From Lachnospiraceae bacterium (GTDB lineage Bacteria; Bacillota; Clostridia; Lachnospirales; Lachnospiraceae): a DNA stretch of 32,320 nt. The first letter of the stretch is position 1; each line of letters starts with the position of its first letter. Below the pieces are notes generated by a model that did no database searches, was not told where the DNA came from, and worked only from the letters and a program-made list of their open reading frames with translations. A program made the translations under genes and the position numbers. This document shows positions 4,531 through 27,377 of the stretch, piece after piece. Location: the NCBI GenBank assembly GCA_021202335.1, contig JAJQDE010000048.1, positions 1 through 32,320 on the forward strand, written 5' to 3'.

Positions 4531-5457
4531 ATGTCCAAAAAGAGAAAAAAACCTGCGGAGTTTCGTTTTTATGAGCTTTCAAATGATGAGCCTGCGCTTG
4601 CTCTGCTGGGAAACAAGTGGAAGCAGGTCTACGGTGAAAATATTGACAATCAGCATTTTCACAACCTGCTTGAGATTGGCGTCTGCCATTACGGTGAGGG
4701 CGATTTGGTCATAGAGGATGACAGCTATCGCTTTGGGGCGGATATGATATCGTGTATTCCGGCGAATTTTTTGCATGTCACAAGAAGCGATACGGATGTT
4801 GTCGCATTTTGGGAGTATCTCTATATTAATCCCACGGAAATCCTTCAGACCTGCAGCAAAGCGCCGCAGGATATTAAGGGAATTTTGGAGGCGGTCAACC
4901 AAAAGGCGTTTTTTGTGAGTGCGCAGGAAAATCCGATTCTGCTGACGCTGGTAAATGCTATTTTTGAGGAGATGAGCCACAAGCGCGAGTATCATCAGGA
5001 GTGCGTGCGCGGTATGATTTATGCGCTTTTGTTTGAAATTGCACGTTTTAACGGCAAGAAATCAAGCCGCACCTCCGAAAGGAACGGCACTCTTTTGCTG
5101 GAAAACGCGATTGAATATGTTGAGAAAAATTATCACAACAACTTTAAGATTGAGGATTTGGCGAATGTGTGCCATATGAGCGAAACGCATTTCAGGCGCG
5201 TGTTCCAGGAAAAAATGAATATGACGCCGATAGAGTATGTGAATTTTGTGCGCATAAAAAAGGCGTGCGAGCTGATTGACAAGACGGATATCAGCATGGA
5301 GGATGTGGCGGAGAAGGTAGGCTTTATCACGCCTTCCACCTTCAACAGGAATTTCAGGCGCATAATCGGCACATCGCCGTATCAGTGGAAGAAGCGCCCG
5401 GATAATCATGAGCGGAAGCTTTTGGATTATCAGATTTCGGCTTTGAAAGGCTGGTAG
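4531..5457 (+). CDS. AraC-family transcriptional regulator
   Basis: This 308-aa protein has an N-terminal cupin-like ligand-binding region (about 25-110, with HFHNLLEIGVCHYGEGDLVI) and a C-terminal pair of helix-turn-helix motifs (about 190-290). The second contains the classic VAEKVGFITPSTFNRNFRRIIGTSPYQWKK signature. It lies 21 nt after galT on the same strand and is probably in the same operon. A G-rich stretch (GGGGGCGGGAT) serves as a weak ribosome site. By context it would sense galactose or a galacto-oligosaccharide and control this operon, but that is inference. Its stop codon is immediately followed by a long hairpin. Confidence 0.92.
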   Translation: MSKKRKKPAEFRFYELSNDEPALALLGNKWKQVYGENIDNQHFHNLLEIGVCHYGEGDLVIEDDSYRFGADMISCIPANFLHVTRSDTDVVAFWEYLYINPTEILQTCSKAPQDIKGILEAVNQKAFFVSAQENPILLTLVNAIFEEMSHKREYHQECVRGMIYALLFEIARFNGKKSSRTSERNGTLLLENAIEYVEKNYHNNFKIEDLANVCHMSETHFRRVFQEKMNMTPIEYVNFVRIKKACELIDKTDISMEDVAEKVGFITPSTFNRNFRRIIGTSPYQWKKRPDNHERKLLDYQISALKGW

Positions 5458-5650
5458 AATGAAGAGAGTTTCTAGGGCTTTAGAAAACAAAGCCCAACAA
5501 ACTCTAAAACTTCATTCAAAAGAATGCCCAAAGGGCATTCTCCGCAGGTATTTTAAAACTTCATTCAAAAGAATGCCCAAAGGGCATTCTCCGCAGGCTT
5601 TTTTAAACTTCATTTAAAAGAATGTTTCAAAAAAGGGCATTCTCCGCAGG
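5457..5650 (+). repeat. hairpin plus 49-bp tandem array downstream of araC
   Basis: A long interrupted stem (GAATGAA 5457-5463/TTCATTC 5511-5517; AGAGTTT/AAACTCT; GGGCTTT/AAAGCCC) is followed by a perfect hairpin AGAATGCCC-AAA-GGGCATTCT and CCGCAGG. The unit carrying CTTCATTC, the hairpin and CCGCAGG then repeats at a 49-bp period. CTTCATT occurs at 5510, 5559 and 5608; CCGCAGG occurs at 5542, 5591 and 5644. The third copy is degenerate. The long stem is clearly homologous to the one at 8941-9001, so this is a relative of the intercistronic element family. It may end transcription of the galactan operon, but the T-tracts are weak. Confidence 0.85.
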
Positions 5651-5736
5651 TGTTTTAAAATTTTAAGTATTTTTTTGTGTTTTGGTTGAAAATGCACTGA
5701 ATTAAATGGATATTGGAAACAAAAATCAGGCAAAAA

Positions 5737-8002: not shown

Positions 8003-8959
8003 ATGAAAAAGGTTTTTATTGACGGAAGCGAGGGAACCACGGGGCTTCGCATATTTGAGCGCTTCGAGGGGCGGGATGACATTGAGCTTTTGAAAATCCC
8101 GTCGGAGCTTAGGAAGGAGCCAAGCGAGGTTAAAAAATACATAAATGAATCGGATATCACCTTCCTGTGTCTGCCGGACGCGGCGGCAAGAGAGGCGGTC
8201 GCGCTGGTTGAGAACGAGAATACGGTTATCATCGACACCTCGACGGCGCACCGCACACAGGAGGGCTGGGCATACGGCTATCCCGAGCTTTCGCCAAGCC
8301 ACAGGGAGGCGATAAGGACAAGCAGGCGCATCGCCGTTCCGGGCTGCTATGCCACAGGCTTTATCACGGCGGCATATCCCATGGTGGCGCGGGGCGTTCT
8401 GCCAAAGGCTTATCCCGTGGCGGCGTTTGCCATGTCGGGCTACAGCGGCGCGGGCAAAAAGACGATAGCGGTTTATGAGTCGGGCGTTCGTGACAGCGAG
8501 CTGGATTCGCCGAGGGAGTACGCGCTTTCCCAAAATCACAAGCATTTGAAGGAAATGAAGAAAATCACGGGGCTTGAGAGGACGCCGCTTTTTTCGCCGC
8601 TCATATGCGATTATTACAGCGGCATGGTTGTTACCCTGCAATTTTATGCGGATATGCTAAACGGCAATCCGACGCCTGAAAGGGTGCATGAGATGTTTGC
8701 GGATTATTACAAGGGAGAGCAGTTTATTAAGGTAATGCCGTTTGGAAAGGAAGCGGAGTACAACGGATTTTTGGCGGGAAATGCCCGCTCGGGCTGGGAC
8801 GGCATAGAGATTTACGTGACGGGGAATGAGGAGCGGCTTCTTGTCAGCACCCGCTTTGACAATCTCGGGAAGGGCGCGTCGGGTGCGGCGATACAATGCC
8901 TTAATATCGTGCTTGGCTGTGAGGAGAGCAAGGGTTTACAGTGTGAAGAGATTTTCTAG
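8003..8959 (+). CDS. argC: N-acetyl-gamma-glutamyl-phosphate reductase (type 2 ArgC)
   Basis: This 318-aa NADPH-dependent reductase makes N-acetylglutamate semialdehyde in arginine synthesis. It has the N-terminal nucleotide-binding motif FIDGSEGTTG, DTSTAHR, the catalytic Cys115 in VPGCYATG, and SGYSGAGKK. Its length fits the short (type 2) ArgC class. I chose the ATG at 8003 because GGAGG ends 6 nt upstream. An earlier in-frame ATG at 7979 has no ribosome site. No other arg gene is nearby. The last codons (QCEEIF, stop at 8957-8959) lie inside the first stem of a repeated intercistronic element, so the C-terminus is partly element-encoded. Confidence 0.93.
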   Translation: MKKVFIDGSEGTTGLRIFERFEGRDDIELLKIPSELRKEPSEVKKYINESDITFLCLPDAAAREAVALVENENTVIIDTSTAHRTQEGWAYGYPELSPSHREAIRTSRRIAVPGCYATGFITAAYPMVARGVLPKAYPVAAFAMSGYSGAGKKTIAVYESGVRDSELDSPREYALSQNHKHLKEMKKITGLERTPLFSPLICDYYSGMVVTLQFYADMLNGNPTPERVHEMFADYYKGEQFIKVMPFGKEAEYNGFLAGNARSGWDGIEIYVTGNEERLLVSTRFDNLGKGASGAAIQCLNIVLGCEESKGLQCEEIF

Positions 8960-9035
8960 GGTTTTAAAATACAAAGCCCAAGAAAATCTAAAGCTTCACA
9001 CGGCAAATATAATGAAAAATGCTCATTATATTTGC
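8941..9035 (+). repeat. intercistronic two-hairpin element, copy between argC and the methyltransferase gene
   Basis: Hairpin A pairs GTGTGAAG (8941-8948) with CTTCACAC (8994-9001), AGATTTTCT (8949-8957) with AGAAAATCT (8981-8989), and an inner GGGTTT with AAAGCCC. Hairpin B is a perfect 13-bp stem, 9003-9015 with 9023-9035, with loop AAAATGC. CGGGCTTGA follows, as in other copies. The downstream ATG is at 9064. Hairpin A is homologous to the one after araC. Hairpin B and its flank match the copies at 15054 and 16543. Confidence 0.85.
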
Positions 9036-9063
9036 GGGCTTGATAAAGACGAAGGGATTTTGA

Positions 9064-15045: not shown

Positions 15046-15053
15046 GGAAAGCA

Positions 15054-15121
15054 GTGTGAAAAATAAGCTCGATAGCTTATTTTTCACACGGCAAATTTGG
15101 GCTTGCGCCCAAATTCGCGGG
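15054..15121 (+). repeat. intercistronic two-hairpin element between dnaK and the zinc-ribbon gene
   Basis: Hairpin A is a perfect 16-bp stem, GTGTGAAAAATAAGCT (15054-15069) with its complement 15074-15089. Hairpin B pairs AATTTGGGC (15094-15102) with GCCCAAATT (15107-15115), loop TTGC. GCGGG and TTTGA follow. The loop plus one base (CTTGC) is complementary to GCAAG at 15127-15131, directly before AATGGAGG, the ribosome site of the next gene. It begins 9 nt after the dnaK stop. Confidence 0.88.
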
Positions 15122-15145
15122 TTTGAGCAAGAATGGAGGATTAAG

Positions 15146-15553
15146 ATGAGAGATAGAATTTACAATTTTATGAGGTCGAGATACGGAGTTGACCAGCTGT
15201 CATCATTTCTAACATGGGGCGGTGTAATATTCATATTGATTGATATGTTTGCGAGAACGGGCATATTTTACCTATTGGGGATAATAATGCTTATATACGG
15301 TTATATACGCGTGCTTTCAAAGAAATATGAAAGGCGAGCGGCGCAAAACAGGTGGTTTCTCGAGCGCACGGCGGGAATAAGGGGATTTTTTAAGAGCTTC
15401 TCAAACAGAATGAGAAAAAGGCGTGAGGTCGGGAAGGATTACAAGGTGTTTACCTGCTCAAGATGCAGGCAGATGATAAGAGTTCCAAAGAAAAAGGGAA
15501 AAATTGAGATTCGCTGCCCGAAATGCGGGAATACGTTTATAAAACGGACTTAA
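15146..15553 (+). CDS. membrane protein with C-terminal zinc ribbon
   Basis: This 135-aa protein has two adjacent membrane helices (about residues 18-36 and 39-56), then a very basic stretch (RMRKRREVGK). A C-terminal zinc ribbon carries Cys pairs CSRC and CPKC (about 105-130). I start it at 15146, where GGAGG lies 6 nt upstream. A longer frame opens at 15035 but runs through the hairpin element. The basic segment and ribbon should face the cytoplasm, where they could recruit a partner such as the neighbouring Hsp70 or J protein. No function is established. Confidence 0.85.
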   Translation: MRDRIYNFMRSRYGVDQLSSFLTWGGVIFILIDMFARTGIFYLLGIIMLIYGYIRVLSKKYERRAAQNRWFLERTAGIRGFFKSFSNRMRKRREVGKDYKVFTCSRCRQMIRVPKKKGKIEIRCPKCGNTFIKRT

Positions 15554-15562
15554 GGGAGAGCA

Positions 15563-15649
15563 GTGTGAAAAATAAGCTTGATAGCTTATTTTGTCACACG
15601 GCAATTTGTGCAGGAGCGTCACAAATTGCTTTGATGTCGCTAACGCTCC
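15563..15649 (+). repeat. intercistronic two-hairpin element before the DUF5685 gene
   Basis: Hairpin A is GTGTGAAAAATAAGCT (15563-15578) with AGCTTATTTT-g-TCACAC ending at 15599, one mismatch. Hairpin B is GCAATTTGTG (15601-15610) with CACAAATTGC (15620-15629), loop CAGGAGCGT. Seven loop bases, GGAGCGT (15613-15619), are complementary to ACGCTCC (15643-15649), which abuts GGAATGGAG, the ribosome site of the next gene. This geometry allows an H-type pseudoknot. Confidence 0.88.
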
Positions 15650-15664
15650 GGAATGGAGAATAAT

Positions 15665-16555
15665 TTGTTCGGATATATTGCGGTAAATCAGCAGGAAATG
15701 AAATATAAGGAGTATGACGAGTACCACAGGTATTACTGCGGGCTTTGTAAGTCGCTCGGGGAATGTAAGGGTGTACGGGGGCAGCTTTCCTTAAGCTATG
15801 ACATGACCTTCCTTGTCATGCTTCTTACGGGACTTTATGAGCCGGCGGATGAAATTACAGGTATGCGCAGATGCGCGGCGCATCCTTTCTCTAAGCATGA
15901 GTATATTCAAAATAAATATTCACAGTACGCGGCTGACATGAATATAATCCTCACATACTATAAATGCCTTGACGACTGGCAGGACGAGCGGAAGGCGTTG
16001 CGAAAGCTCTATTCGTGTGCTTTAATGCTTGGAAGGGACGACTTTTCTAAGTATGAAGTTAAAATACAGCTTATCAAGGACAGATTAGAAAAAATAGGCG
16101 AGCTTGAGAGCGAAGGAAGCAATGATTTGGACAAGCTTTCCGGATATTTTGGGGAAGCGCTTGCAGGCATTTTTGCATATACCAACGATGAGTGGGAGAA
16201 AAGCTTGGCAAGAGTGGGCTTCCATCTCGGGAAATTCGTTTATATACTTGACGCGTATGACGATTTGGAAAAGGATATAAAGAAAAAAAGCTTTAATCCC
16301 TTGATTTCAAGGCTGAACGGCTTTTCGGGAAACGACCCGTCAAAGATTTCAAGTAAGGAATGGGAGCGGATTTCCACATGGGTAAAGGAAGTGCTGATGC
16401 TGTCAGCGGCGGAGTGCGCGAAGGAGTTTGAGAAGCTCCCGATTATAAAAAATGTGGAAATTTTGCGAAATATATTGTATTCCGGCATATGGAACGGGTA
16501 TTATAGGGCTATGAGTAAAAGGGATAAGAAGAATGGAGAACAGTGTGAAAAATAA
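15665..16555 (+). CDS. DUF5685 family protein with paired Asp-rich motifs
   Basis: This protein of about 296 aa belongs to a family (DUF5685) of unknown function. It opens with FGYIAVNQQEMKYKEYDEYHRYYCGLCKSLG, with CxxC at residues 25-28 and a later CAAH. It is otherwise predicted all-helical. Two Asp-rich motifs stand out: DDWQDE (about 103-108) and DAYDDLEKD (about 196-204). These resemble the metal-binding motifs of trans-isoprenyl or squalene-synthase folds. I place the start at TTG 15665, with GGAG 6 nt upstream and the usual FGY beginning. An ATG at 15653 would coincide with the ribosome site. The stop lies inside the next repeated element. Confidence 0.85.
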   Translation: MFGYIAVNQQEMKYKEYDEYHRYYCGLCKSLGECKGVRGQLSLSYDMTFLVMLLTGLYEPADEITGMRRCAAHPFSKHEYIQNKYSQYAADMNIILTYYKCLDDWQDERKALRKLYSCALMLGRDDFSKYEVKIQLIKDRLEKIGELESEGSNDLDKLSGYFGEALAGIFAYTNDEWEKSLARVGFHLGKFVYILDAYDDLEKDIKKKSFNPLISRLNGFSGNDPSKISSKEWERISTWVKEVLMLSAAECAKEFEKLPIIKNVEILRNILYSGIWNGYYRAMSKRDKKNGEQCEK

Positions 16556-16609
16556 ATTTTTCACACGGCAAATTTGTGCTTGCGCCCAAATTAGCGGGCT
16601 TGAGTAAGC
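16543..16609 (+). repeat. intercistronic two-hairpin element before the J-domain gene
   Basis: Hairpin A is GTGTGAAAAAT (16543-16553) with ATTTTTCACAC (16556-16566), and it contains the upstream stop codon. Hairpin B is AATTTGTGC (16571-16579) with GCCCAAATT (16584-16592), one mismatch, loop TTGC. GCTTGC (16578-16583) is complementary to GTAAGC (16604-16609), one G-U pair, directly before ATGGAGG, the ribosome site of the next gene. Confidence 0.88.
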
Positions 16610-16622
16610 ATGGAGGTTTATT

Positions 16623-21294: not shown

Positions 21295-21327
21295 CGAGCA
21301 GGGTTAAAATTACCCTGCTCGTTTTTT
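21295..21327 (+). terminator. rho-independent terminator after the XRE gene
   Basis: CGAGCAGGGT (21295-21304) pairs perfectly with ACCCTGCTCG (21312-21321), 7-nt loop, followed by six Ts. The T-run doubles as the left arm of the next hairpin. Confidence 0.9.
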
Positions 21328-21362
21328 ATCGTATAGGAAAGTTCGCCCTATACGATAAAAAC
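21321..21362 (+). repeat. repeated hairpin family (CGTATAGG), copy 1
   Basis: TATCGTATAGG (21327-21337) pairs with CCTATACGATA (21347-21357). The stem extends by T-A pairs to almost 17 bp, with loop AAAGTTCGC. A near-identical hairpin lies at 23755-23806. This one is about 95 nt upstream of the radical-SAM gene. Confidence 0.85.
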
Positions 21363-23754: not shown

Positions 23755-23806
23755 AGAGTCGTTTTTCGTCGTATAGGAAAGTCCGTCCTATACGATAAAA
23801 CGCTCT
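23755..23806 (+). repeat. repeated hairpin family (CGTATAGG), copy 2
   Basis: AGAG/CTCT, CGTTTT/AAAACG and TCGTATAGGA/TCCTATACGA stack into one long interrupted stem with loop AAGTCCG. The hairpin directly precedes GGAATGGAGG, the ribosome site of the next gene. The core differs from the copy at 21327-21357 at only a few positions. Confidence 0.87.
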
Positions 23807-27016: not shown

Positions 27017-27236
27017 TACACACACCTCCCTAATAAGCAAATCAAAATTACTACGAAACACCCATGTGAATTACAGGTGCTATGGAGTATTAGACAGGGA
27101 TGCTTCGTAATCATTTTTTATTTTAGCAAAGAAAAATGGCAAAAACAAGCCATATTTGGAATAAAATGGAAGAAGTGCATAAAATAATATGTTGTATTTC
27201 CATGCCGCAATGTGCTATTGTATTTATGGAACATGA

Positions 27237-27280
27237 ACAAACATTGCGCTATGCGCAAAGAGCAGCGCAGAAATGAGGAG
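27237..27280 (+). repeat. 44-bp direct repeat, left copy
   Basis: This 44-bp segment, ending in GAAATGAGGAG, recurs at 27334-27377 with one base difference. The left copy carries a ribosome-site-like sequence with no start codon at the right distance. The surrounding 27017-27381 gap holds no gene that I can see besides this element. Confidence 0.93.
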
Positions 27281-27281
27281 A

Positions 27282-27367
27282 GAGTGAAAAATAAATTTTT
27301 CACTCGGCAAGTTTGTGACTGCGCGTTGCTTGCACAAACATTGCGTTATGCGCAAAGAGCAGCGCAG
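27282..27367 (+). repeat. intercistronic-type two-hairpin element before the M18 aminopeptidase
   Basis: Hairpin A is GAGTGAAAAAT (27282-27292) with ATTTTTCACTC (27295-27305), a variant of the GTGTGAA stems elsewhere. CGGCAA follows. Hairpin B is GTTTGTG (27311-27317) with CACAAAC (27333-27339), loop ACTGCGCGTTGCTTG. Loop CTGCGC pairs with GCGCAG (27362-27367), and TGCT pairs with AGCA (27358-27361), just before the ribosome site GAGGAGG. Confidence 0.82.
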
Positions 27368-27377
27368 AAATGAGGAG
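27334..27377 (+). repeat. 44-bp direct repeat, right copy, carrying the functional ribosome site
   Basis: This copy differs from 27237-27280 at one base (GCGTTATG versus GCGCTATG). It supplies the GAGGAGG ribosome site of the aminopeptidase gene and the right arm of hairpin B and its pseudoknot partner. Confidence 0.93.

Follow-up and report, generated by a model that had tools for sequence, protein, structure and literature searches.

A probably mobile repeat in ribosome-binding sites of Lachnospiraceae, with a covarying pseudoknot core

Introduction

The REP/BIME sequences and the ends of IS200/IS605 elements are palindromes next to a short target motif. Transposons of the IS200/IS605 or REP/RAYT type have hairpins and insert 3' of such a motif, which recurs at their right end. 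TD-2 RNA (RF03162, clan CL00124), reportedly described from Treponema denticola, has two adjacent hairpins. The BOX, RUP and SPRITE sequences of Streptococcus pneumoniae are small structured interspersed repeats that are held to be parasitic; BOX is modular, and the pneumococcal repeats are inserted into one another and transcribed with the neighbouring genes (PMC3049150, available part of the text). Miniature inverted-repeat elements (MITEs) are short repeats without genes of their own, with terminal inverted repeats and a target duplication of fixed length (PMC10969869, available part of the text).

In this work, we analysed a repeat of about 75-160 nt that is present in a window of 32,320 nt from a Lachnospiraceae bacterium (contig JAJQDE010000048.1) and elsewhere in its genome. 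The element is like BOX, RUP and SPRITE in being small, structured, interspersed, modular and nested, but it has a constant Shine-Dalgarno sequence (SD) at the 3' end and a covarying pseudoknot, and most of its copies abut start codons; the words "ribosome" and "pseudoknot" are absent from the available text on the pneumococcal repeats (PMC3049150). Like MITEs, it is short and has no genes of its own, but its two ends, as aligned and judged by eye, are not inverted repeats of each other, and no parent element for the repeat was found. The likeness of its flanks is significant, but there is neither a fixed-length duplication nor a terminal inverted repeat, and membership of the MITEs was rejected; the terms Shine-Dalgarno, ribosome, start codon and pseudoknot do not occur in the available part of the MITE review (PMC10969869). 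With REP/BIME and the IS200/IS605 ends it shares palindromes by a short target motif, but an enzyme of the Y1 type is unmatched in 14 of 21 carrier genomes. A literature search found no description of the element within the papers covered.

The preliminary description of this DNA could name no known RNA family that fits, and this holds at the Rfam gathering thresholds for the window and 18 loci. Rfam 15 had no match at the gathering score in the window and two matches in the 18 loci (T-box and ZTP), neither over a copy. The two hairpins of TD-2 have a sequence like that of the element, on the opposite strand; the whole model was matched by the copy at 15054 with 38.8 bits (E 3.0e-4, whole-genome search), and the second-best match of the genome (26.8 bits) was also a copy. 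The best score is below the gathering score of 48.7 and the match is clear only in one copy, so membership of TD-2 was rejected. In 40 other loci with copies, no TD-2 match was obtained at E<=0.05, where even 38.8 bits would be only just listable, and in viral contigs neither the TD-2 core nor the hairpin A pattern had a match.

Results and Discussion

Architecture of the element

In a typical copy, an SD-like motif in the left flank is followed by hairpin A (GTGTGAAAAATAA..TTTTTCACAC or GAGTGAA..TTCACTC) and hairpin B, which begins with GC(A/T)A..TTTG; then come an optional hairpin C, a partner of the hairpin B loop, (A)AATGGAG, about 6 bases and ATG. The copies of the window have the following features.

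15054..15089, + strand: copy 1, hairpin A (GTGTGAAAAATAAGCTC...TTCACAC), from the sequence; profile match 15052-15138
15091..15118, + strand: copy 1, hairpin B, loop CTTGC at 15102-15106
15127..15131, + strand: copy 1, loop partner GCAAG, from the pairing analysis
15132..15139, + strand: copy 1, terminal SD AATGGAGG, 5' of ATG 15146
15563..15599, + strand: copy 2, hairpin A, from the sequence and a profile match
15601..15629, + strand: copy 2, hairpin B, loop CAGGAGCGT at 15611-15619
15643..15649, + strand: copy 2, loop partner ACGCTCC, from the pairing analysis
15652..15658, + strand: copy 2, terminal SD AATGGAG, 6 nt before TTG 15665
16530..16540, + strand: copy 3, left flank, the old SD of the dnaJ-like gene (AGAATGGAGAA) within the end of the DUF5685 frame, from comparison with L191-L194
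16543..16566, + strand: copy 3, hairpin A, from the sequence, the hairpin A pattern and a profile match
16568..16595, + strand: copy 3, hairpin B, loop CTTGC at 16579-16583
16604..16609, + strand: copy 3, loop partner GTAAGC, from the pairing analysis
16610..16616, + strand: copy 3, terminal SD ATGGAGG, before ATG 16623
27282..27305, + strand: copy 4, hairpin A (GAGTGAA...TTCACTC), from the sequence, the hairpin A pattern and a profile match
27307..27344, + strand: copy 4, hairpin B, imperfect at its base, loop ACTGCGCGTTGCTTG at 27318-27332
27359..27367, + strand: copy 4, loop partner GCAGCGCAG, from the pairing analysis
27368..27375, + strand: copy 4, terminal SD AAATGAGG, before ATG 27382; profile match
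27234..27280, + strand: 3' part of another copy, of the subfamily of copy 4, which stands directly behind its SD
8941..9063, + strand: diverged copy with a long hairpin A and a hairpin B, loop pairing absent, from the pairing analysis

Hairpin B, the pseudoknot and the terminal SD of the AATGGAG type form the core, which is kept in most copies; a few deletion forms are without a full hairpin B (L009, L021). Hairpin A is exchangeable. It varies with the pairing kept (GTGTG, GAGTG, GTATG, GATTG), and in the own genome of the window other palindromes (AGAACAAACTTTGTTTGTTC, AGAACCAACTTTGTTGGTTC) stand in its place or are doubled with it, or there is none. By script, a recognised hairpin A is absent at 11 of 85 terminal motifs, among which several have a diverged hairpin A, two represent a single place, and L163 is perhaps not a copy.

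A covarying pseudoknot

The loop of hairpin B had been proposed to pair with the bases just 5' of the next ribosome site, and this was confirmed in four of the five window copies. The helices are CTTGC (15102-15106) with GCAAG (15127-15131), 5 bp, in the copy at 15054; GGAGCGT (15613-15619) with ACGCTCC (15643-15649), 7 bp, at 15563; GCTTGC (16578-16583) with GTAAGC (16604-16609), 6 bp including one G-U, at 16543; and CTGCGC with GCGCAG, together with TGC/GCA farther in, at 27282. From the end of the partner to GGAG/GAGG there are 3, 5, 2 and 4 bases, respectively. The copy at 8941 has both hairpins and no such loop pairing, its best helix being 4 bp and out of register. Further pairings are CTTAC/GTAAG, GGAGTG/CACTCC, CTGAGC/GCTCAG, GCAGGCA/TGCCTGC, CCGGAGCGT/ACGCTCCGG, CCGGAGCAT/ATGCTCCGG and CCGGAGCGC/GCGCTCCGG, as well as CCGAAGCGT/ACGCTTCGG in the own genome. 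In the main subfamilies the register is fixed, since the base that opens the loop after TTTGTG (or TTTGTGA/T, TTTGTTT) has as its partner the base immediately 5' of A(A)ATGGAG.

For a wider comparison, 119 copies were gathered, of which 3 were unparsed; among the remaining 116, a terminal motif and a start were present in 104, and 103 conformed to the arm pattern. The count includes all of these 103, which hold 64 distinct loop/partner pairs. The pairs were counted ungapped by script, because a MAFFT alignment of the loop and tail pieces shifted two subfamilies by one base. The mean helix score of 83 distinct loop/partner pairs was 17.13, as against 11.50 (sd 0.45, max 12.61) in 200 partner swaps. 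In the fixed register, over the first 5 positions of the 64 distinct pairs, 78.7% of the cells were paired versus 57.0% (sd 2.5) in 500 swaps, and covariation on both sides was 0.244 versus 0.071 (sd 0.015, max 0.117), the swaps taking no account of relatedness among the copies and the distinct pairings being carried by several subfamilies. Sliding the register of the 64 pairs by 1-3 bases gave a covariation of 0.035-0.097. The loops of the window copies had been said to differ with complementarity kept, and this is borne out as covariation in the wider set, whose 64 distinct pairs come from many genomes; the pairing itself, the partner swaps and the slides all support the pseudoknot that had been suggested. 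At least 4 of 9 pairs form in register in 72 of 91 own-genome copies, but since 57% of the cells pair in the five-position swap control, it is the covariation and not this count that is the evidence. Some copies are poorly or not paired in register (L003, L008, L012, L056, L062, L071, L089, L105, L106, L107, L120, L143, L148, L157, L174), for some of which insertions or a shifted register are the cause, and L059, L061 and L160 have an A-C mismatch at the fourth pair.

By eye, the UUUGUG/UUUGUUU of the 5' arm of hairpin B in the main subfamilies could also pair weakly, in a G-U rich helix, with AAUGGAG/AAAUGGGG. This possible alternative fold of the arm with the terminal SD, beside the pseudoknot, would hide the SD.

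Distribution

The carriers are the genus of the window and other genomes, mostly Lachnospiraceae. The covariance model that was used is mainly a sequence profile with rough E-values, and only hairpin A was included as structure, because hairpin B could not be aligned between subfamilies. The 37 copies behind the model include about 14 from the own genome, which match by construction. In the 2.7 Mb own genome the model had 114 matches (E<=0.01), from which 23 partial or antisense matches were set aside and 91 were read. Profile matches were present in 34 of 38 genomes of the genus, own included (E<=0.001), and in 17 of the 18 good ones. A strict hairpin A pattern occurs at 16 places in the own genome and at 0 for the control, and the short pattern TTCACACGGCAA, with one mismatch allowed, at 49 places versus 13 for the reversed control, although not all 49 are copies. 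The strict pattern was matched in 13 of 60 genomes (own included), all of the same genus, and in an even sample of the order in 1 of 216, the own genome only; thus, either the strict pattern understates the family or the family is patchy. In named genomes at least 109 stretches were found. Among the matches listed, most are titled Lachnospiraceae or a genus taken as belonging there, and 15 have broader or other labels, including one Bacillus sp. MAG.

Placement at ribosome-binding sites

The typical place of a copy is between the ribosome-binding site of a gene and its start, and each copy brings a new ribosome-binding site. An ATG stands behind the terminal SD in 107 of the 116 copies and a TTG in one more, in a set that was gathered by hairpin A alone and with a parser that rewards a following ATG; the distance from the terminal SD to the start is 6 bases in 66 of 108 copies. 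In a cruder count of terminal 8-mers followed by ATG and a frame of 50 codons, the result was 90 of 132 in element context and 29 of 158 for the same 8-mers outside recognised copies. In the own genome, 75 of the 91 copies have an ATG behind them, 71 with a frame of at least 50 codons; 16 are without ATG by script, a few of these being deletion forms whose end the script missed. On the left side, an SD-like flank is present in 80 of 99 copies compared with 25 of 99 farther upstream. A co-directional upstream frame ends nearby in 81 of the 105 copies with enough upstream sequence, and in 22 of these 81 cases it ends inside the element.

A Pfam scan of 25 downstream genes showed no common theme, two being without a family and one having only a weak match. 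The genes include those of a small membrane protein, a DUF5685 protein, a dnaJ-like protein, RsmF, an M18 peptidase, UDP-glucose dehydrogenase, an Lrp/AsnC regulator, an ABC-F-like ATPase, Vsr, an LD-carboxypeptidase, a phage-type integrase, YidC (60KD_IMP), a ParA-type ATPase, a topoisomerase, Der, a response regulator and a solute-binding protein. With dozens of dispersed copies before unrelated genes, a switch of a single gene was ruled out. YidC, Der and type I topoisomerase are commonly essential, and some genes behind copies are probably essential; the SD of a copy that stands before such a gene would have to work. The placement at start sites may stem from selection, copies elsewhere having possibly been lost.

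Empty sites, nesting and flanks

Places without the element were found for two genes of the own genome. The DUF5685 gene is present in 5 of 38 genomes, own included, and the four relatives are the loci compared with the window. The dnaJ-like gene is without the insert in 4 of the 4 orthologous loci found; its SD lies within the end of the DUF5685 frame, directly before the ATG. At this place in the window (AAGAATGGAGAAC), the element comes next and, behind it, a new ATGGAGG, in a comparison where protein identity is only about 50%. The Der proteins are 81-91% identical within the genus, and 30 of 37 full-length der loci were read, own included (29 of 36 relatives). The element stands between the SD and the ATG in 0 of these 29 relatives; in 28 of 29 the last 22 nt contain an SD-like motif, which is of the AGAAATGGAG type in 25. 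The own der leader reads TAGAAATGGAGATTA-element-GGAATGGGAGATTATAAAATG: its left flank TAGAAATGGAGATTA matches the AGAAATGGAG type, and behind it stand the element and a second GGAGATTA. A related hairpin pair is found upstream of der in G018, G015 and G003 with the old SD intact; the place of a copy is thus not always an SD. A word scan at der also flagged L368 and L376, where no such hairpin pair was seen in the bases shown.

Nested copies stand right behind the SD of an older copy at 27234/27282, in L021 and in L104. At an Lrp-type gene, two different subtypes occupy the same place in the own genome and in G028 (L040, L055); unless one subtype has taken the place of the other, descent alone therefore does not account for the dispersal. 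The string shared by the left and right flanks was longer than in shuffled flanks (5.57 versus 5.05, sd 0.14; 1/2000 within genome and type, 65 copies). Likeness of the flanks within type was reached in 0/1000 shuffles over 101 copies, and by type the values were p=0.020 (31 copies) and 0/1000 (55 copies); in the GAGTG subfamily alone the likeness was not significant (p=0.26, 15 copies). The flank tests exclude the misparsed L056, L062 and L148. A target duplication of fixed length was not found, and no single offset carries the flank signal.

Mobility, regulation and the possible mover

We hypothesize, with fair confidence, that the family is a non-coding, mobile repeat, which inserts into ribosome-binding sites and reconstitutes them. 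The element would take the SD (GGAG..ATTA) as its target, its own 3' end being a copy of an SD. An insertion would then swap one working ribosome site for another and for that reason be harmless even before essential genes. The GTGTGAAAAATAA of the element would supply stop codons to upstream frames that run into it. Least certain is the role of the pseudoknot, which may be kept to fix the 3' end for the mobilising machinery or, alternatively, to keep the folded element from burying the SD that it brings; we lean towards a role in the spread or tolerance of the element itself over the regulation of each host gene.

The main alternative is the gating of translation that the preliminary description put forward, by a putative cis-acting translational regulator, where the loop/tail pseudoknot of the mRNA would open or close the access of the 30S subunit to the SD, perhaps for one regulon, with dispersal being secondary. 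It agrees with a covarying pseudoknot that ends a few nt before the SD, with the narrow spacing to the start (6 nt in 66 of 108) and with the retention of the pseudoknot in the core when hairpin A is lost. However, the SD is outside the pseudoknot, the 25 downstream genes have no common theme, and pairing is absent in some copies, such as those at 8941, L003 and L008. An asymmetry between G-U and A-C, which would favour the mRNA strand, was not significant (26 to 17, p=0.22). The predicted openness of the SD also hardly changes: in folds predicted without the pseudoknot it was 0.464 with the element, slightly more than with a shuffled element (0.408; higher in 59 of 96, p=0.018) and slightly less than when the element was taken out (0.539; higher with it in 40 of 94, p=0.04). 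The predicted effect is too small to rest on, and exposure of the SD by folding was set aside as an explanation. Taken with this evidence, a regulator of this kind is unlikely.

For a mobile repeat, the mover has to be considered. The copies could be ends of a single-strand DNA transposon of the IS200/IS605 or REP/RAYT type, moved by a Y1 transposase in trans, which would fit the hairpins and the insertion behind GGAG..ATTA, a motif that recurs at the right end; at der and in nested copies it flanks the element on either side, but in a variable register. The Y1 transposase (PF01797) was matched in 7 of 21 carriers and had no match in the other 14, own included, many of the carriers being drafts of untold completeness. 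All seven carriers with at least 5 strict-pattern copies are without a Y1 match, and G065, which has the most Y1 matches (13), holds one strict-pattern copy. It is possible that a Y1 enzyme has been lost since, was missed in a draft or is supplied by a passing element, but this origin is improbable. Copying back of an RNA would leave a constant 3' end and a variable, chimeric or truncated 5' end, and the differing 5' modules over a constant 3' core and a few 5'-truncated copies, e.g., 27234-27280, point that way. On the other hand, truncated copies are few (11 of 85 without a recognised hairpin A, several of them diverged), and reverse transcriptase (PF00078, RVT_1), matched in 12 of 21 carriers and once in the own genome, had no match in 9 of 21, many carriers again being draft genomes; we regard such retro-copying as very improbable. 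Because the matches are patchy over the 21 carriers, neither enzyme need be resident, and neither was consistent as a resident mover. The mobile repeat could in its most specific form be a selfish element with the SD itself as attachment site, moved by neither an HUH transposase nor a reverse transcriptase but by machinery that recognises a pseudoknotted single strand, so that the ribosome site is rebuilt at each landing and the starts of essential genes are colonised without cost. This is a tentative proposal, and it is somewhat doubtful that all its parts hold.

If the family is a mobile repeat of ribosome sites, these sites would be a niche for mobile DNA, and the element would enter the most sensitive part of an essential gene carrying a replacement for what it breaks. 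In this gut bacterium, dozens of genes would then rely for their translation on ribosome sites brought by repeats, and a conserved, covarying pseudoknot beside an SD would alone be no proof of a regulator. The mobiliser can be searched for directly.

Gene starts and neighbouring repeats

The gene behind the copy at 15563 most likely starts at TTG 15665 (homologues begin with MFGY), and the one behind the copy at 27282 likely starts at ATG 27382. The ATG inside AATGGAG (15653, 27370) was called as a start by the ORF finder, which is an annotation risk at these elements. The long hairpin A of the copy at 8941 (8944-8998) recurs at 5460-5514, 87% alike, behind the gene that ends at 5457; thus, 5' modules may also occur as repeats by themselves. 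In the intergenic region after 5457, another palindromic repeat (AAAGAATGCCCAAAGGGCATTCT) of about 49 nt is present three times in near tandem (window 5505-5655). In L061 (1380-1640) and L160, a degenerate smaller relative (GTGTGAAATAAAAATTTCAC + GCCCGCAAAAGCGGGC + GAATGGGAG) stands directly before the main copy. Several different palindromes are nested before a gene in L106 (2010-2360), where the likely orthologue in L107 has one standard copy. A further palindromic repeat, TATCGTATAGGAAAGT..CTATACGATA, is present at 21319-21360 and 23759-23800, 90% alike, and a sequence like it precedes the copy in L046.
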